Shown here: positions 17,584 through 26,605 of the stretch, one piece after another
Numbering within the stretch: position 1 is the first letter of the stretch
Layout of the letters: each line of letters starts with the position of its first letter
From: a virus
IMG/VR virus record: IMGVR_UViG_3300008107_000123
Coordinates: 41,630 to 68,267 of that record
Reading direction: 5' to 3' (one strand)
DNA length: 26,638 nt
Notes under the pieces: generated by a model
The model's input: only the letters and a program-made list of their open reading frames with translations
Database searches by the model: none
What the model was told of the DNA's origin: nothing
Position numbers and translations under genes: made by a program

Positions 17584-18690
17584 ATGTCAGTACCCACACG
17601 CGAAGGATTCCGGCGCGCACTGGCCGGCACACCGATGGCACGCGAGGCGGACCGCATCTATGACGTCGCGTCACGCGGAGGGATCAACCCGGCGCTGGTC
17701 GTCGGCATCGCTGGTGCCGAGAGCAACTTCGGTCGTCTCGGCTACGCCGTTGGCAAGAACAACCCCTACGGCCTCATGGGGTTCCGCTTCGGCAACTACA
17801 CCCAGGCAACGCAGAAGCTCGTTGAGACGCTGAATAACAAGGGCCTCGGGTACCGGCAGGCGTATGGCAAGTCGGGGCTCGTAGGGATGATCAACATCTA
17901 CACCCCTCGAGGCGCGGCCAACGGACCGAACAACGACCCTGACGGCCACACGCGGAACATCATCAACATCGGCCGCAAGAGCGGTGGTGACGCGTCGAAG
18001 GCATACATCAGCCCGGGCGCCGTACCGGCCGCTGCGCCTGGTGCGACACCCAGCGGCACCATCGCCGGCGGGCTCAACACAACCAACCTGATGAACCTGA
18101 TGCGCCAGCAGACCGAGCGCATCAAGAGCGGCCAAGGGTACGACCGCGAGCTGGGGCTCAAGATCCGCCAGTCCGTGATCGACGGCATCGGCACTAGGAA
18201 CATCGGCGGGGGGAACGTGCCTGCCGCTGGACCGAACCCGCAGCCGCAGGGCGGCGACATTGACGTTGGCTCGCTCGGCATCCCCTACGGAGGTGTCGAC
18301 TCGCGCGGCATCACTAGGGGTGGCGCGGGTGGCAATTGGGGCGGCTCCATGCCGAGGGCTCTCCAGTTCCTGCAGTGGGCGCAGCAGACCGGCTACAAGC
18401 CGAACACCGCAGGCCGCTGGCTCTCGCAGAAGCGTTCCCGCCAGAACACAGCATCAGGCGGAGTGTCCGACCATTGGCAGGGAAGCAGCACTGCGTATGG
18501 CCTTGATCTCGGAGTCCCGAACGTGGCCGAGGGCGACAAGCTCCTCGGCAACTTGATGCGCTACTTCGGGCAGCCGTCCTACAGGGGCGGCTCCTGGCTC
18601 AATATCAACAAGGGCGGCTACCGCTACCAGATCGGATGGCGCACGCCGGGCCACTTCGACCACATCCATGTGGGCGTCAGGAAGCTGTAG
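17584..18690 (+). CDS. Virion-associated two-domain peptidoglycan hydrolase
   Basis: 368 residues; the ATG follows the previous stop directly and AAGGAAGGG lies just upstream. Domain 1 (about 15-135) looks like a glucosaminidase or lytic-transglycosylase fold: PALVVGIAGAESNFG puts a likely catalytic Glu at 46, followed by NNPYGLMGF. A Gly/Pro linker runs from about 145 to 235. Domain 2 (about 250-368) resembles an M15/LAS-type zinc carboxypeptidase: SDHW at 295-298 (His297), YGLD with Asp308, and the closing GHFDHIHVG with His360 and His362. The His-to-Asp spacing is longer than the usual HxxGxAxD. Position at the end of the structural block suggests a tail-borne enzyme that opens the wall at infection, although a late lysis role cannot be excluded. 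Confidence 0.75.
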   Translation: MSVPTREGFRRALAGTPMAREADRIYDVASRGGINPALVVGIAGAESNFGRLGYAVGKNNPYGLMGFRFGNYTQATQKLVETLNNKGLGYRQAYGKSGLVGMINIYTPRGAANGPNNDPDGHTRNIINIGRKSGGDASKAYISPGAVPAAAPGATPSGTIAGGLNTTNLMNLMRQQTERIKSGQGYDRELGLKIRQSVIDGIGTRNIGGGNVPAAGPNPQPQGGDIDVGSLGIPYGGVDSRGITRGGAGGNWGGSMPRALQFLQWAQQTGYKPNTAGRWLSQKRSRQNTASGGVSDHWQGSSTAYGLDLGVPNVAEGDKLLGNLMRYFGQPSYRGGSWLNINKGGYRYQIGWRTPGHFDHIHVGVRKL

Positions 18691-18734
18691 TTAGGAATGC
18701 GTAACGTCATGCACAAGTGCAAGGATATGAAGCA

Positions 18735-19007
18735 GTGAACCCCGATCCCTCGCCCGTCAACCACGGCCAGATCCAGTGGCGCGTCGATCAGTTGGAGAAC
18801 CGCATGGACCGGCTCGAGCAGTCGGACGCGGCGCGCACCGAGATCCTCGCACGCATGGATGAGAGGCAGAACGTCCTGGCAGAGGACGTCAAGCTGCTCG
18901 GCCGAGACATGGCTGGGATCAAGCGTTCCCTCTACACACTCCTGTTCGCGCTGGCGCTCGCTGTCGTCAGCACCGCCATCGACATCGCAGTGAGGCTGAC
19001 GACATGA
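18735..19007 (+). CDS. Small coiled-coil membrane protein (XhlA-like lysis accessory)
   Basis: 90 residues from the GTG at 18735, with AAGGA 9 bases upstream. An in-frame GTG at 18717 would add six residues but lacks a ribosome site. Residues about 11-60 form a charged helix with heptad-like hydrophobics (IQWRVDQLENRMDRLEQ) and residues about 66-85 are one transmembrane segment (LYTLLFALALAVVSTAIDIA). This layout matches XhlA/hemolysin-type phage proteins that act beside holins. The last codons overlap the endolysin ATG (ATGA), so the two are co-translated. A role as holin partner or anti-holin is inferred from form and position. Confidence 0.7.
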   Translation: MNPDPSPVNHGQIQWRVDQLENRMDRLEQSDAARTEILARMDERQNVLAEDVKLLGRDMAGIKRSLYTLLFALALAVVSTAIDIAVRLTT

Positions 19008-19693
19008 AGCTTGACCCCCGCTGGATCGGACGCAAGAAGCGGCTGAAGGCGTATGCCCTCTCGAAGGGGATCGCCATCCCGAGCGGCTACCGCATCAACC
19101 CCTACTGCGGCTCGGCCTGCCGCGAGCTGATCAAGCGCGTTCAGCGCCACCTCTACGGCGAGGCCGGCGTCACCGGTAAGTGGAACGGCGGCCTTGACGC
19201 CGCCATCGCGCCGAAGCTCACCACTCCGCAGCGCGCTCTGAGGTTCGCGCAGGGCGAGATCGGCATCAAGGAGCATCCGCCCGGCAGCAACAGTGGGCCA
19301 AGGGTCCGCGAGTTCCAGGCGGCATCGTCGCTCGGGGGGACGGGATGGCCATGGTGTGGAGCCCTGATGGCATGGGCGTATGGCAAGGCCGGCAGGCCGC
19401 TCAAGGGCTTCAACAATGCCTACGTCCCTGACTACGTCGCGACCGCCCGGCGCAATGAGGATGGCCTGCGCGTCGTCTCCGCCGAGAGGGCCCGCCCCGG
19501 GGATCTCGTCTGCTTCGACTGGGGCGGAGACGGGACTTCAGACCACATCGGGATTCTGGAGACGCCGGTTCGCAGCGGCCGTTTCCAGAGCATCGAGGGC
19601 AACACCTCGTTCAGCAACAACTCAAACGGCGGAGAAGTGATGCGCCGGGACCGCAACGTGTCCCAAGTGCAGTGCTTCATCCGCGTCGTGTAG
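19004..19693 (+). CDS. Endolysin with CHAP domain
   Basis: 229 residues. The N-terminal part (about 1-72) has a helical Arg/Lys/Gly pattern (RELIKRVQRHLYGEAGVTGKW), similar to a peptidoglycan-binding-1-like domain. The C-terminal part (about 78-229) is a CHAP amidase/endopeptidase: Cys118 in WPWCGALMAWAYGKAG, a following GDLVCFDW, His181 in SDHIGIL and the acidic EGNT at 198-201, which together form the expected Cys-His-acid set. CHAP enzymes cut amide bonds in peptidoglycan for host lysis. No signal peptide is visible, so release through the neighbouring holin is expected. The cassette order (membrane protein, lysin, holin) supports the call. Confidence 0.88.
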   Translation: MKLDPRWIGRKKRLKAYALSKGIAIPSGYRINPYCGSACRELIKRVQRHLYGEAGVTGKWNGGLDAAIAPKLTTPQRALRFAQGEIGIKEHPPGSNSGPRVREFQAASSLGGTGWPWCGALMAWAYGKAGRPLKGFNNAYVPDYVATARRNEDGLRVVSAERARPGDLVCFDWGGDGTSDHIGILETPVRSGRFQSIEGNTSFSNNSNGGEVMRRDRNVSQVQCFIRVV

Positions 19694-19714
19694 CAACCAC
19701 CGAAGGAGCGTTAC

Positions 19715-19978
19715 ATGAAGGTCCCTGTTGGTATCTCGACGGTCGTCGCCGTCCTCACCATCGCTGCCGCCGCCATCGGCGCAGTCATCACCGGGCTTGA
19801 CGGCGCAGGCACCGCCGTGCCGCTCACGCTTTCGATCATTGCCGGAGTCGTCACCAGTGTTCTCTCGGTGCTGCGCTCCTGGCAGGCCAACACGCTCGCC
19901 ATCTGGTCAGACGACGGGCCCGACAACGGCGCGCAGGCGGTCAGCGTTGAGGGCTTCCTCGCCGGGCTTGACGACTAG
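19715..19978 (+). CDS. Probable holin (two membrane helices)
   Basis: 87 residues with GAAGGAG 6 bases before the ATG. Two hydrophobic segments are clear: about residues 6-28 (STVVAVLTIAAAAIGAVITG) and about 34-52 (VPLTLSIIAGVVTSVLSVL), followed by a polar, acidic tail (NTLAIWSDDGPDNGAQ). This size and shape fit class II holins, which make holes in the cytoplasmic membrane so that the endolysin can reach the wall. It directly follows the endolysin gene. A paired XhlA-like protein upstream completes a three-gene cassette. Confidence 0.75.
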   Translation: MKVPVGISTVVAVLTIAAAAIGAVITGLDGAGTAVPLTLSIIAGVVTSVLSVLRSWQANTLAIWSDDGPDNGAQAVSVEGFLAGLDD

Positions 19979-21217: not shown

Positions 21218-21433
21218 ATGTCATTGTCCGAACTGAACCCACCTTCGACTCCCCCCCCTCTCGATTTACAGGCGGCTGAAGTTCGTCGGGTGATCCGCGA
21301 GATGCGACGGTCCGCCCGCAGGCTCGGACCGTGCGCTACTTCTTCTTGGCTGACCGCGGCGGCGGAGTCTGCCGCCCGGGAGCTTTGCCGATGGGAGTCT
21401 CAAGAGCTGACTTCATCGCCGCCGCCGACCTAG
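21218..21433 (+). CDS. Small unknown protein convergent with the repressor gene
   Basis: 71 residues from the ATG at 21218; GGAGGG lies 4 bases upstream and the promoter above fits. An upstream TTG at 21155 is part of the -35 and is rejected. The sequence has a Pro-rich N-terminus (NPPSTPPPLDLQ), a basic helix (AAEVRRVIREMRRSARRL) and a short C-terminus. A C8 tract (21251-21258) in the N-terminal coding part is a potential slippage site. The last 98 bases overlap the 3' end of the repressor gene on the other strand. Transcription of this gene could therefore produce antisense RNA to the repressor mRNA or collide with its polymerase. Nothing else is recognised. Confidence 0.5.
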   Translation: MSLSELNPPSTPPPLDLQAAEVRRVIREMRRSARRLGPCATSSWLTAAAESAARELCRWESQELTSSPPPT

Positions 21434-21668
21434 TTGCCGGCGCGGGGTCATCGGTGATCCCCACCAGGTAGTCGATGGAGACGTCCAGCACCATCGCAAG
21501 GCGCGACAGCGTCTCTACCGATGGGAAGGACTGGCCCTGCTGGATCCGGCACATGGACGCTGATGTCACGTTGGCGATCTGCGCCAGCGCCTTCTGCTGC
21601 GTCGTGCCACTGAGGCCGTAGAGCCTCTCTAAGAACTTGGTCCGGTCGATCAGCGATTCGTCGCTCAT
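21336..21668 (-). CDS. XRE-family phage repressor (HTH)
   Basis: 110 residues from the ATG at 21668; a GTG at 21677 (113 residues) has GGAG 4 bases ahead, so the start is not certain. Residues about 24-70 form a classical helix-turn-helix: QQKALAQIANVTSASMCRIQ followed by SFPSVETLSRLAMVLDVSID, ending YLVGI, close to the XRE/Cro-CI type (the recognition helix carries VTSASMCRIQQG). The C-terminal 35 residues are basic, Pro-rich and probably disordered. It is the only leftward gene here apart from the integrase and is divergent from the early genes, the typical place of a lysogeny repressor. It lacks a visible peptidase-like domain, so RecA-triggered self-cleavage is not evident. Confidence 0.8.
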   Translation of the reverse strand: MSDESLIDRTKFLERLYGLSGTTQQKALAQIANVTSASMCRIQQGQSFPSVETLSRLAMVLDVSIDYLVGITDDPAPATRSAAAMKSALETPIGKAPGRQTPPPRSAKKK

Positions 21669-21707
21669 GGTCGTCACGCTGCTCCGTGTCATTGGTGGTG
21701 TGGTGCG

Positions 21708-21736
21708 ACCATACGCACGCGCAACGGCAAACGCAA
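21708..21736 (-). promoter_or_regulatory. Leftward repressor promoter TTGCGT-N17-TATGGT
   Basis: On the minus strand TTGCGT (21736-21731) and TATGGT (21713-21708) are 17 bases apart. The transcript would start near 21701 and lead into the repressor about 25-35 bases later. The -35 includes the ACGCAA sequence that is repeated upstream of the early genes, so repressor autoregulation is plausible. Confidence 0.6.
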
Positions 21737-21780
21737 TGCGACGAGTGACCCGATGACGAGAATCTGAGACAGCCTGTCCC

Positions 21781-21817
21781 CTTACTAGCCGTAAGTATAG
21801 GTTGTCGCTCGTAGCGA
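21781..21817. promoter_or_regulatory. Two inverted repeats, candidate repressor operators
   Basis: CTTAC-tagcc-GTAAG (21781-21795) and TCGCT-cgt-AGCGA (21805-21817) are perfect dyads 9 bases apart between the repressor and the early operon. Dimeric XRE proteins bind such sites. TATAGG (21796-21801) lies between the two. The dyads are visible; binding is inferred. Confidence 0.4.
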
Positions 21818-21824
21818 GGAAATC

Positions 21825-21853
21825 TTTCTTGCGCGCCCCCCCGTCCGTATAGG
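21825..21853 (+). promoter_or_regulatory. Weak candidate rightward early promoter
   Basis: TTTCTT (21825-21830), 17 bases, then TATAGG (21848-21853). The -35 is poor. The -10 resembles the GTATAG elements at 21795 and upstream of the capsid gene. It would drive the early genes starting at 21922. Confidence 0.3.
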
Positions 21854-21879
21854 TGCCGTCCGACCCCGTCGTTAGGTTT

Positions 21880-21897
21880 ACGCAAACGCATACGCAG
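21880..21897 (+). repeat. Three tandem ACGCAN hexamers upstream of the early operon
   Basis: ACGCAA, ACGCAT and ACGCAG follow one another at 21880, 21886 and 21892, 12 bases before the Shine-Dalgarno of the first early gene. The same ACGCA core lies at 21713 and 21731 in the repressor promoter, and its complement TTGCGT at 21155. Candidate regulator-binding array. Confidence 0.45.
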
Positions 21898-21921
21898 ACA
21901 CATGGGAACAAGGAGGGCACT

Positions 21922-22158
21922 ATGAGACAGCCGGTGGTTGTGACACCTGAGCAGATGCCGCAGCTAGTGGAGTGGGTCAGCGACTTCGGCCTGGACATGC
22001 TCAAGACCGCGTTCCGGTATCGGGACGAGATGAGTTCGGAGGCTCGCGGGGCCTTCGACAGCAACGTCAAGAACTTCACGGCGAAGGTCGGTGAGTTCTA
22101 CCCAATCGAGGATCTCATCGCGGCTGCGATGGAAGAGGGGTCCGACGATGAGTCGTAA
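21922..22158 (+). CDS. Small acidic early protein, unknown
   Basis: 78 residues; AAGGAGGG lies just before the ATG, a strong site that decides this start over in-frame codons further upstream. The sequence is helical (MPQLVEWVSDFGLDMLKTAF; MSSEARGAFDSNVKNFTAKV) with an acidic end (MEEGSDDES). It is the first gene to the right of the switch, so it should be expressed early. Its last bases overlap the start of a 37-residue membrane peptide. No family recognised; early position suits a regulator or host-takeover factor, but that is only inference. Confidence 0.65.
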   Translation: MRQPVVVTPEQMPQLVEWVSDFGLDMLKTAFRYRDEMSSEARGAFDSNVKNFTAKVGEFYPIEDLIAAAMEEGSDDES

Positions 22159-23609: not shown

Positions 23610-23813
23610 ATGCCTGTCGCCGGGATCGGGTGGTCCGAGGAGCGGACGGCCACGGGAGCGCGCAAGCGCCGTCGCCGTAGCCGCGGACGCCCGGTCCCCG
23701 GCGGTGGGTGCGCCTGCTGCCAGGACCGCAGACGGATCCTTGAGCGGTGGGTGCTGGAGGACCGGTACGGCCCGTATGTCTGGGTCGTGTGTCGATGGTG
23801 CGACGAGGAGTGA
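23610..23813 (+). CDS. Small zinc-ribbon protein
   Basis: 67 residues. Basic N-terminus with an Arg/Lys run (ARKRRRRSRGRP, 17-28) followed by Cys34-x-x-Cys37 (GCACCQ) and, 24 residues later, Cys61-x-x-Cys64 (CRWC), a CxxC...CxxC zinc-ribbon arrangement. The first pair has an extra Cys36. It starts 4 bases after the SSB-like gene and is followed by the excisionase-like gene. Basic region plus zinc ribbon suggests nucleic-acid binding. No family named. Confidence 0.6.
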   Translation: MPVAGIGWSEERTATGARKRRRRSRGRPVPGGGCACCQDRRRILERWVLEDRYGPYVWVVCRWCDEE

Positions 23814-23817
23814 AGTG

Positions 23818-24042
23818 GTGGAGAAGATGGTTTCGGTGGGCGAGGCAGCCGAGGTTGTTGGCGTCCACCCAAAGACGCTCGGGCGACTGATCCGAAACGG
23901 CGAGGTTCCTGCCGTGCGCGTCGGCCGGCAGTGGCGCATCCGCCTGTCCGACCTCGAGCCGGGCTACCAAGCCCCGAGGAAGGCCGCCGCGAAGCGCGAG
24001 CCGACTGGCACGTTCACGCGGATCGCAGCCGAGCTTCCGTAA
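23818..24042 (+). CDS. Excisionase-like MerR/HTH protein
   Basis: 74 residues from the GTG at 23818; GAGGAG lies 7 bases ahead. A GTG at 23815 and an ATG at 23827 are alternatives. The N-terminal half reads VSVGEAAEVVGVHPKTLGRLIRNGEVPAVRVGRQWRI, the pattern of winged helix-turn-helix proteins of the excisionase and MerR families (helix, turn, RLIRNGEVPAVRVGRQWRI wing). The C-terminal tail is Arg/Lys-rich. It overlaps the 3' end of the integrase gene by 29 bases in convergent orientation, a position expected for Xis, which switches integrase from integration to excision. Confidence 0.75.
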   Translation: MEKMVSVGEAAEVVGVHPKTLGRLIRNGEVPAVRVGRQWRIRLSDLEPGYQAPRKAAAKREPTGTFTRIAAELP

Positions 24043-25033
24043 ACAGATGCGCGTAGTGATCAAGAGTCACCTTGGGCGAGTGCCCGAGCCACGACGCGAC
24101 GGTCATGAGGTCGTGCCCGTCCGCGATCCATTGGCTGGCCGCCGTGTGCCTGAGGTCGTAGGGCACGCCCGTGAGGCCGAGCGTGGTGCGGGCCGGGGAC
24201 CAGACCTTGCGCGTCCACATCTGCCAGTTGAGGTACTTGCCCCTGAGCGGCGGCGCGACCAGGTCGTACTGGTTTCGGCCCTCGGGTCCATACTTGGCGA
24301 TGGCCTTCTTGAGCAGCGGGTCGGTTGGGATCGCCCGCTGGTGGACGCCCTTCGCCAGTTTCTCAGCCCCGTACTGCACGGAGCGCCAGACGCGCACCGA
24401 CTCACCGATGTCGCGCCACTCGAGGGCCACCACCTCGGCGGGGCGCAGACCGGCGTAGGCCATGACGGCCACGATGAGGCGGTCACGGTCGGTCGGCATG
24501 GCCGCGATGATCTTGGCGACGGTCTTCCGGTCCCATGCGCGTCGGTCGGTCGGGGGCTCGGGCACCTTGCCGAGCAGCCTGACCGGGTTCCCGGGGATGA
24601 GCCCGTCGGACTCGGCAACTCCGAGCGCGGCGGACAGGACCCGCGTGGCGTTGTTGGTGTTGACCGGCGGCGAGCCGTCACGCACGATCTCCGCGCGCCA
24701 CTCCCTGACCCGGGCCCGACCCAGCTCGCGCAAGGGAACGTGCCCGATGTAGGGATCTATCCACTTGTCCATGAGGGACGCCCGGCTGGTGCGCGTGGTC
24801 TTGGCCCACGCCACGCCGCTGGTGCGGACCCACTGGATCAGCCAGTCATGCAGCGGCATGTCCGACGGCTCGGTCGGAGCGAATGCCCCGAGCCGCCGGC
24901 GACGGAGCATCTCGCCCTCATGGGCCTTGGCTTCGTCTTCCGAACGGAATGTTCGCGACCGGTTCCTGGTGCCCTCGCGCCAGCGAACCTCGAAGCTTGT
25001 CCCGCCCTTCCCCTCACGGCGATGTATCGACAT
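24014..25033 (-). CDS. int: Tyrosine-type site-specific integrase
   Basis: 339 residues. N-terminal DNA-binding part (about 1-60) has the basic HRREGKGGTSFEVRWRE pattern of arm-binding domains; a core-binding domain follows (about 60-150) and the catalytic domain (about 160-339). Catalytic residues in order: Arg197 in AYAGLRPAEV, a likely Lys near 225-228, Tyr292/Arg295 of the YDLRH segment (box II; His of HxxR replaced by Tyr), His318 in WLGHSP, and Tyr327 in DHYAHLF. It catalyses integration at the tRNA site. Its 5' end faces attP about 115 bases away. The ribosome site before the ATG is weak. Its 3' end overlaps the excisionase-like gene. Confidence 0.92.
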   Translation of the reverse strand: MSIHRREGKGGTSFEVRWREGTRNRSRTFRSEDEAKAHEGEMLRRRRLGAFAPTEPSDMPLHDWLIQWVRTSGVAWAKTTRTSRASLMDKWIDPYIGHVPLRELGRARVREWRAEIVRDGSPPVNTNNATRVLSAALGVAESDGLIPGNPVRLLGKVPEPPTDRRAWDRKTVAKIIAAMPTDRDRLIVAVMAYAGLRPAEVVALEWRDIGESVRVWRSVQYGAEKLAKGVHQRAIPTDPLLKKAIAKYGPEGRNQYDLVAPPLRGKYLNWQMWTRKVWSPARTTLGLTGVPYDLRHTAASQWIADGHDLMTVASWLGHSPKVTLDHYAHLFTEARLRSA

Positions 25034-25093
25034 GAGCAGGAAGGTACCCCAAGGAACAGAAGGATGTACGGATCCGTTCGCAACTGGGGAAAT

Positions 25094-25109
25094 CAGGTTG
25101 ATGGTCTAA
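25094..25109 (+). repeat. attP-flanking direct repeat, copy 1
   Basis: CAGGTTGATGGTCTAA. Copy 2 at 25342-25357 differs in one base. The pair flanks the tRNA-derived core; candidate integrase arm sites. An unrelated fit: its end lies just before the AGGAGG of the Rpf-like gene. Confidence 0.45.
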
Positions 25110-25124
25110 CTAGGAGGGAAGTCC

Positions 25125-25742
25125 TTGTTTAGCAGGCGATTCAAGAAAAGCGGGCGACCGGGCTCGAACCGGCGACCGTCAGCTTGGGAAGCTGTTTCTG
25201 GGCAACGTCGCCCTGTTCCCAACGGTACCCGATCCTCCCGTCGCACGGGGCGATCCGGCCATTCCGTCATCCGTCGTGGTCCCTTCGTGTTCCTCTCTGC
25301 GGCGGGCCTCATGTTCGGAATCGGTTCGCAGATCGGCGTGGCAGGTTCATGGTCTAAGGCTTACGCAACTACATGTGCAAAGCATCAGGCACAGGAGAAG
25401 CGCGCCTGCGTCAAGCAGGCCAAGCGAGACGCCGTCCGCTGGCCCGCGTACCCCGTCACCACGACGGACCTCACTCGCCGTGACGTAGCGATCTCACGCT
25501 GGGTGAACCTCGGCCGCTGCGAGGCGGGCCACGGCTCGGGCTACGGCGGCGTGCGTTGGAACACCCCGAGCGGCTGGCGGTATCAGGGCGGCCTTGGCAT
25601 GTACGACCGCAGCCACGCCTCCACCAGCCACCCCTACGGGTATGACGCCGGGCAGTGGAACTGGCAGACCCAGGTTCTTGTCGGCCAGAGGCTGATGGAG
25701 AAGTACGGGATCACTGCGTGGTCCGCATGGAGGTGCTGGTGA
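25125..25742 (+). CDS. Secreted Rpf-like transglycosylase (gene spans attP)
   Basis: 205 residues if it starts at TTG 25125, which has an AGGAGG 7 bases upstream, the only good ribosome site; GTG 25287, ATG 25311 and GTG 25338 are alternatives without one. Residues 1-50 are basic; residues 6-20 are the antisense translation of the attP tRNA copy. A hydrophobic segment (FVFLSAAGLMFGIGSQIGVAG, about 54-74) acts as signal or membrane anchor. The C-terminal half holds RCEAGHGSG (likely catalytic Glu), YQGGLGMYDRS and a WNWQTQVLVGQRLMEKYG end with AWSAWRCW, as in resuscitation-promoting-factor/lysozyme-like domains. The next gene overlaps by 4 bases (GTGA). It may be a lysogeny-associated moron or lysis helper. 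Confidence 0.6.
   Translation: MFSRRFKKSGRPGSNRRPSAWEAVSGQRRPVPNGTRSSRRTGRSGHSVIRRGPFVFLSAAGLMFGIGSQIGVAGSWSKAYATTCAKHQAQEKRACVKQAKRDAVRWPAYPVTTTDLTRRDVAISRWVNLGRCEAGHGSGYGGVRWNTPSGWRYQGGLGMYDRSHASTSHPYGYDAGQWNWQTQVLVGQRLMEKYGITAWSAWRCW
25149..25197 (-). other. attP core: 3' half of a tRNA-Gly(CCC) gene
   Basis: Read on the minus strand, the sequence gives the anticodon loop TTCCCAA (anticodon CCC) between CAGC and GCTG, a variable region, a perfect T-arm (GCCGG-TTCGAGC-CCGGT) and the acceptor strand CGCCCGC with a T as discriminator base. The D-arm and 5' acceptor half are absent upstream, so this is not a complete tRNA gene. Tyrosine integrases of temperate phages often use the 3' part of a tRNA gene, and the phage copy restores the gene after integration. 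Its position about 115 bases from the integrase start matches attP. Confidence 0.85.
25342..25357 (+). repeat. attP-flanking direct repeat, copy 2
   Basis: CAGGTTCATGGTCTAA, one base different from 25094-25109. It lies inside the N-terminal coding part of the Rpf-like gene (codons for AGSWSK). A looser relative occurs at 21138 (TCTAAGGCTT shared with the bases after copy 2). Confidence 0.45.
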
Positions 25743-26605
25743 ATGCCTCCCCACCCCTCACAGCCGGATCTCTTTTCTCAGGCGTCGGTGGCATGGACAT
25801 CGGGCTCGAGTGGGCCGGGTTCCAGCACAAGTTCTTCGCTGAGATCGATCCCTACTGCCGAGCAGTCCTTGAGGCACGGTTCCCCGGCGTCCCTGTCTAC
25901 GAAGACGTCAAGCTCGTCGACGCCGACGCGGGCTACGTCGACCTCCTCTGCGGAGGCTTCCCCTGCCAGGACCTCAGTGTCGCCGGCAAGCGAGCCGGGC
26001 TCGCAGGCGAGCGCAGCGGACTCTTCTTCGAGTTCATGCGAATCGTTGACGCTCTTCGTCCCCGAGCCATCCTCATTGAGAACGTCGAAGGGCTCTACAG
26101 CTCTGGAAGCCCTAAAGGCGCAGACTTCGGGGTCGTCCTCGACTCGCTGGCCGAACGCAGGTATCTGGCGTCGTGGCGAACTCTTGACGCGCAGCACTTC
26201 GGGGTGCCACAGCGAAGGCGACGCGTGTTCGTGTGCGCCATCGCTGACGGAGATCCTCGAGCCGAACGCATCGGAGAAGTACTCGCTGTCGCAGAAGGCA
26301 GCGGCGGGGATTCTTCGACGAGCGACCCGGCGTGGCCGCTCTCTGCCTCCGCAGTTGGACGAAGCACTGAGGGCAGTGGCGGGCGAATCGTCGGAGCCCT
26401 GTCAGGACGAAGCGTGACGCGCTTGGACGAACAGTGCGTGGGGGGGGGTCAGCTTGTGACTGCGGCTGTGACCTCCAAGTGGGCAAAGGGGAGCGGCGGC
26501 CCTGCCGGCGACGAGATCCAGAACGTCGTGTGGTCGGCGCGCTCTCCGCTCGCGGATACACCAAGTACACCGATCAGGAGTTCGTCCGACGGGGGCAACT
26601 CGTGA
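25739..26605 (+). CDS. C5-cytosine DNA methyltransferase, apparently frameshifted
   Basis: 288 residues from the GTG at 25739 (GTGA overlap with the previous stop; GGAGG 5 bases ahead; ATG 25727 is an alternative). Motif I SLFSGVGGMDIGLE (11-24), motif IV GGFPCQDLS with the catalytic Cys76, motif VI ENVEGL (114-119) and motif VIII QRRRRVFV (158-165) are clear. After motif VIII the target-recognition region begins, but the frame stops at 26605 before motifs IX and X. A second reading frame continues the protein from about 26530 (see next entry). So a -1 (or +2) indel is likely near 26525-26533. Possible role: host-modification or protection of phage DNA. A G9 tract lies at 26440-26448. Confidence 0.8.
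   Translation: MNASPPLTAGSLFSGVGGMDIGLEWAGFQHKFFAEIDPYCRAVLEARFPGVPVYEDVKLVDADAGYVDLLCGGFPCQDLSVAGKRAGLAGERSGLFFEFMRIVDALRPRAILIENVEGLYSSGSPKGADFGVVLDSLAERRYLASWRTLDAQHFGVPQRRRRVFVCAIADGDPRAERIGEVLAVAEGSGGDSSTSDPAWPLSASAVGRSTEGSGGRIVGALSGRSVTRLDEQCVGGGQLVTAAVTSKWAKGSGGPAGDEIQNVVWSARSPLADTPSTPIRSSSDGGNS
26387..26461 (+). repeat. Internal repeat unit A of the methyltransferase
   Basis: 25 codons, IVGALSGR to GGQLVT, in the frame of the gene. Its second copy lies at 26530-26607 in another frame. Contains the G9 tract. Confidence 0.55.

Follow-up and report, generated by a model that had tools for sequence, protein, structure and literature searches.

The window analysed here is a stretch of 26,638 nucleotides that corresponds to bases 41630-68267 of a 68,267-base IMG/VR record. 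The record (G000) is a scaffold with 26 Ns at 41604-41629 between two related phages, which are 73-88% identical over their matching segments. At G000:C1:41580-41653 an identical 24 bases flank the gap on both sides, and the window begins directly after the Ns. A tandem prophage was considered for this record and dropped, since the record represents two related phages joined across the 26 Ns. The window is thus the second piece of the scaffold, a fragment of a temperate phage. It carries portal, capsid and lysis-type genes, an HTH repressor-like ORF (21336-22079), an excisionase-family protein (23704..24042, plus strand; TIGR01764 excise, E 4e-13; start of the ORF uncertain), a tyrosine integrase (24014..25033, minus strand; PHROG 1 integrase, E 3.7e-44), an Rpf-like gene and a C5-cytosine methyltransferase (25739..26605, plus strand; PF00145, E 4.6e-47). 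The methyltransferase gene begins with a GTG overlapping the stop of the Rpf-like gene and is preceded by a GGAGGT of its own. Its 3' part is unreliable; a run of about nine Gs at 26435-26450 lies near the onset of divergence from a second phage record, L002 (IMGVR_UViG_3300008266_000398), and the end of the gene in the window may reflect an assembly-error shift or true divergence. L002 is 98.8% identical to the window and has the same locus.

The attP core was located at 25148-25194 on the minus strand and consists of the 3' part of a tRNA-Gly(CCC), bases 28-73 (73 being the discriminator), plus one flanking base. An earlier note on this DNA, made from the letters alone, had recognized this tRNA copy; its bounds of 25149-25197 are to be shifted slightly. 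The core is single-copy within the 68-kb record and is identical at 46 of 47 positions to the tRNA-Gly(CCC) of Miltoncostaeales, the sole difference falling at tRNA position 44. The locus has two properties of a tyrosine integrase with a tRNA attB: the integrase contains the catalytic domain (PF00589, E 1.4e-13), and the core corresponds to the 3' part of the host tRNA, which is restored on integration in silico, as the host 5' half joined to either known allele of the core gave a full tRNA with ARAGORN.

The tRNA-derived core lies in frame within the Rpf-like ORF (25125..25742, plus strand; stop 25740-25742), which is open throughout and encodes 205 amino acids in its virus form. The Shine-Dalgarno (SD) sequence AGGAGG (25112..25117, plus strand), 7 nt 5' of the proposed virus-form start TTG (25125..25127, plus strand), and the open frame that runs from there through the tRNA copy to the Rpf-like domain are all present as the earlier note had described them. 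This TTG is the only in-frame start between the stop at 25107 and a GTG at 25287. A signal-peptide-like segment follows on the plus strand (25269..25364), whose first codon, ATC, is aligned with the ATG start of the homologue L158, and then the mature Rpf-like domain with a CE motif (25365..25742, plus strand). By codon usage, 25125-25268 is non-coding-like, resembling wrong reading frames, and the sequence from 25269 on is coding-like, and the codon score of 25197-25268 is below that of all 24-codon windows of the phage's own genes.

The Rpf-like label given to the protein by the earlier note proved to be right, in the sense of a distant relationship to PF06737 seen through a profile bridge. 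The window protein itself gave no Pfam match even at E 10 and so did not pass the cut-off of PF06737, and its homologues reached this family at E 0.023-0.05 only, short of the cut-off. On the other hand, a profile built from the phage proteins found a protein of the host class, L165, at E 4e-13, and L165 is a clear member of PF06737 that passes the cut-off (E 2.4e-10). The CE motif, in which the catalytic glutamate of Rpf proteins sits, is aligned in all members. Among PDB sequences the Rpf domain matched RpfE alone, at an E of 5.6 that is not evidence by itself; no relative of the protein was found in 50,697 phage records, and two AlphaFold models were poor (pLDDT 40 and 46). From these comparisons we infer a secreted muralytic enzyme, which would benefit lytic growth and be a burden to a lysogen. 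The window also shows a weak glucosaminidase match at 17584-18690, an amidase/CHAP-like ORF at 19004-19693 and a small membrane ORF at 19715-19978, the latter two judged by eye only. Since the phage has these other possible lysis genes (17584-19978), the Rpf-like protein is not its sole candidate lysis enzyme.

Repeats around the core suggest how far the attachment site reaches. A 38-nt direct repeat on the plus strand has its left copy at 25072..25109 and its right copy, within the coding sequence, at 25320..25357 (IGSQIGVAGSWSK), with an offset of 248. The copies are identical at 28/38 positions with a best 16-mer of 15/16, and neither value was reached in 1000 shuffles. A 17-nt inverted repeat across the core (25043..25059 and its partner 25213..25229, both plus strand) is weak, with 76% complementarity. 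A related phage contig described below, L173, has a perfect 21-bp direct repeat of other sequence at the corresponding positions (offset 246), and L174 showed no arm repeat above chance. The direct repeats flanking the core are candidate arm-type sites of the integrase, and the right-hand one coincides with an insertion in the window protein relative to its homologues L158 and copy 1. Thus, attP probably spans about 25070-25360, taking in the first 78 codons of the Rpf-like ORF. Scans for sigma-70 promoters and terminators over 24950-25450 found none.

A profile search of IMG/VR for related integrases yielded three further phage contigs, L173, L174 and L175, whose integrases are 56% (L173) and 57% (L174/L175) identical to that of the window. 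In L174/L175 the divergent ORF reads MRISRFFTSSGRPGSNRRPSAWEG..., followed by a signal peptide, an Rpf-like domain and a methyltransferase; in L173 it reads VAFSRGNNQSGRRDSNPRHSAWEC..., followed by a signal peptide and a diverged Rpf-like domain. The earlier note had singled out homologues that all begin after the tRNA-derived segment as one observation that would speak against its reading, and this is not what we found, as the ORFs of L173 and L174/L175 begin before the core. The upstream start codon is TTG in the window, ATG in L174 and GTG in L173. It is preceded by an SD match of 6 bases in the window, of 6 in L174, where AGGAGG again stands before the aligned ATG, and of 4 in L173, which is weak, while starts 3' of the core have matches of at most 3 bases. 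Requiring a 6-base SD match for the window and L174 and a 4-base match for L173, an upstream in-frame start with SD arose in 2.0%, 1.2% and 4.3% of shuffled left flanks, respectively. The product of about 1e-5, which assumes independence, makes the common layout of three diverged lineages unlikely to be a product of chance, and we are highly confident that the layout is real and conserved.

These data also bear on the main rival explanation, in which translation begins beyond the core, near 25269-25287, the open frame upstream is a by-product of the proximity of attP, and integration would alter only transcription from upstream. The onset of the coding signal at about 25269, the alignment of this codon with the ATG of L158 and the fact that the copy-1 and L177 homologues begin at the signal peptide are all what such a short protein would predict. 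However, codon 25269 is ATC, and the GTG at 25287 falls within the hydrophobic stretch of the signal peptide, with neither an SD nor a basic n-region before it. Moreover, in three lineages an SD is found before the upstream start and none before any downstream start, and all three share one reading frame through the core, though such a segment can be open in each of the three frames. We therefore regard the short form as unlikely and a virus-form start upstream of the core as probable. The homologues without this attP (copy 1, L158 and L177) have the signal peptide at their very N-terminus, with an SD of their own in copy 1 and L158, and the peptide around the core, outside the core itself, is poorly conserved between lineages. 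In our reading, an attP module was placed onto an ordinary gene for a secreted protein, whose original start was lost and replaced by one beyond the core. Two things would leave the lead free to vary, its removal as a cleavable n-region and the attP functions of its DNA.

The host order is likely Miltoncostaeales. The earlier note had proposed to find the tRNA-Gly(CCC) attB in a host genome and to reconstruct the junctions; of the 42 genomes of one order, 15 have a tRNA-Gly(CCC) that differs from the core at a single base, and junctions could be modelled from it, but there was no exact match. Among the members of this order are a Lake Erken actinobacterium and MAGs that bear the name Miltoncostaeales. 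Exact attB was absent from 84,980 species genomes and from 399 genomes of the class, and the exact core, with C at tRNA position 44, did not occur in any sampled genome. Sampling 396 genomes across the phylum gave four matches only, all from the Miltoncostaeales order. Equally close tRNAs occur outside the phylum, in some Gemmatimonadetes and others, so the assignment to the phylum is based on the integrase: enzymes at 38-43% identity occur in the same host order, several of them adjoining tRNA-Gly(CCC), while those of isolated phages are at about 30%. Searches of the host order with the capsid protein, the integrase and Rpf profiles revealed no prophage copies with the Rpf gene, nor an integrated copy of the window phage. 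Among the 42 genomes of the order, profiles A2 and A5 found no Rpf-like protein, a search that had no positive control within the order, and the phages may carry a gene type that their hosts lack. Rpf-like proteins occur in other genomes of the host class.

In one genome of this order, G027, a 40.6-kb element has an intact tRNA-Gly(CCC) at one end and, at the other, the 3' part of this tRNA repeated over 49 bp. Its integrase and excisionase are about 40% and 36% identical to those of the window, and the integrase adjoins the intact tRNA in the same direction. This is the geometry predicted for the window by the earlier note, with the SD, the TTG and int at the junction with the intact tRNA and the Rpf-like gene at the other, so that the element agrees with this prediction. 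It resembles the window in its tRNA target, its core (49 bp), the position of int by the intact tRNA and its related excisionase. It differs in its far-end gene, which is RusA-like and whose start seems to lie at least about 150 nt from the core, leaving attP outside the gene. This difference is informative about another explanation, that a compact attP simply shares DNA with the gene and that the change of state is invisible to selection. The repeats do place a DNA constraint inside the gene and the peptide before the signal is hardly conserved, as this explanation would have it. On the other hand, the related attP sites of G027 and L177 overlap no gene, and the SD and an in-frame start have been retained beyond the core in three lineages; we consider a purely structural overlap highly improbable.

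To see what integration would do to the gene, 15 host flanks were modelled before the core. An in-frame TGA directly precedes the core in 7 of them, and the few in-frame starts in the other flanks have no SD. A gene downstream of the tRNA could be called in 11 host loci, and in 7 of them it converges on the tRNA. These 7 loci are L146, L148, L151, L152, L153, L155 and L157; in two of them the gene ends directly at the tRNA end. As transcripts of such converging genes may enter the prophage end, the loss of expression would be translational and not necessarily transcriptional. The same arrangement allows an opposite switch, a lysogenic conversion in which host transcription across the junction activates the Rpf-like and methyltransferase genes in the lysogen. 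The converging host genes, which would read into the prophage end, and the methyltransferase's own SD are in keeping with it, but the enzyme would have to come from a weak or non-standard start, as none of the 15 modelled junctions offers an in-frame start with an SD and 7 have a stop directly before the core. We judge this opposite switch improbable. The earlier note had also suggested that both cargo genes could depend on the integration state; this probably holds for the Rpf-like gene, which would lose its start, and is less certain for the methyltransferase gene, because its GGAGGT and GTG would make it translatable from any transcript that crosses the junction.

We favor, with moderate confidence, that an attP built into the 5' end of a gene for a secreted Rpf-like peptidoglycan hydrolase acts as a switch set by the state of integration. 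Translation in the virus genome would start from TTG 25125 by use of the AGGAGG, and the tRNA-derived core would be translated as part of a long, basic lead to the signal peptide. As the lead would be cleaved off with the signal peptide, the exported enzyme would be independent of the core. The integrase would recombine the core with the tRNA-Gly(CCC) gene of a Miltoncostaeales-like bacterium, by which the tRNA is rebuilt at the int side, where the ribosome site and the start codon would stay, and the gene body would move to the other junction, behind host sequence that lacks an in-frame start with an SD. The hydrolase would thus be off in the prophage, and excision would restore the gene. The benefit would be that no cell-wall enzyme is made during lysogeny. 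Comparison at the sequence level shows the layout, the frame, the conservation in three lineages, the host tRNA and the geometry in a related element. That silencing of the Rpf-like gene in the prophage is the very function of the arrangement seems to us somewhat better than an even bet. We see the chances as evenly balanced for the fuller proposal, a conserved switch without a repressor, in which integration removes the ribosome site and start of the hydrolase and the signal peptide hides the tRNA-encoded lead.

In integration-dependent immunity, attP lies within the coding sequence of the repressor, whose 3' end is lost on integration (PMC4557955, PMC9934374). In mycobacteriophage BPs and in clusters G, I, N and P, integration drops a C-terminal degradation tag and thereby activates the prophage form of the repressor (PMC4557955). 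The earlier note had drawn a parallel with these systems, and it stands for the layout, as in both cases attP lies in a phage ORF and integration alters the product of that gene. It does not extend to the target or to the end of the gene concerned: here a gene for a secreted enzyme, the Rpf-like gene and not a repressor, has attP at its 5' end and would lose the ribosome site and start. Neither an attP within a repressor nor the removal of a C-terminal ssrA-like tag was found, and the HTH repressor-like ORF lies away from attP. The window system resembles integration-dependent control, yet it falls outside the BPs-type immunity family. In Myxophage Mx8, attP lies within the integrase gene and integration gives it a new 3' end (PMC6070905). 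Like the window, Mx8 has attP in a coding sequence and integration creates a recombinant gene, but its target is the integrase, which gains a 3' end and stays functional with altered specificity. Use of an Rpf-type domain by phages is also known, from the Rpf motif in the tape-measure protein of mycobacteriophage Barnyard (PMC1796659). The two share an Rpf-type peptidoglycan-degrading domain, but the window protein is free-standing, small, secreted, distant in sequence and encoded beside int.

The genes so far known to be controlled by integration, repressors and an integrase, are affected through the loss of their 3' ends, and a search of the open-access literature turned up no account of a secreted enzyme gene controlled at its 5' end. 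If the present reading is true, the attachment site also serves phages for switching the translation of cargo or lysis functions on and off. The removal of the tRNA-derived stretch with the signal peptide would make its presence within a gene tolerable, and frames of this kind, as a rule set aside as spurious, can be genuine. The setting is a family of freshwater actinobacterial phages, in which the switch is so far seen in sequence alone. Finally, of five differences between the window and L002 in about 1.45 kb, four fall within 85 bp around the core (25121-25205; binomial p of about 6e-5). One distinguishes core alleles at tRNA position 60, C or T in the window and L002, each of which is also present in host tRNAs. 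As the phage difference mirrors the host tRNA alleles, attP may track host tRNA variation.
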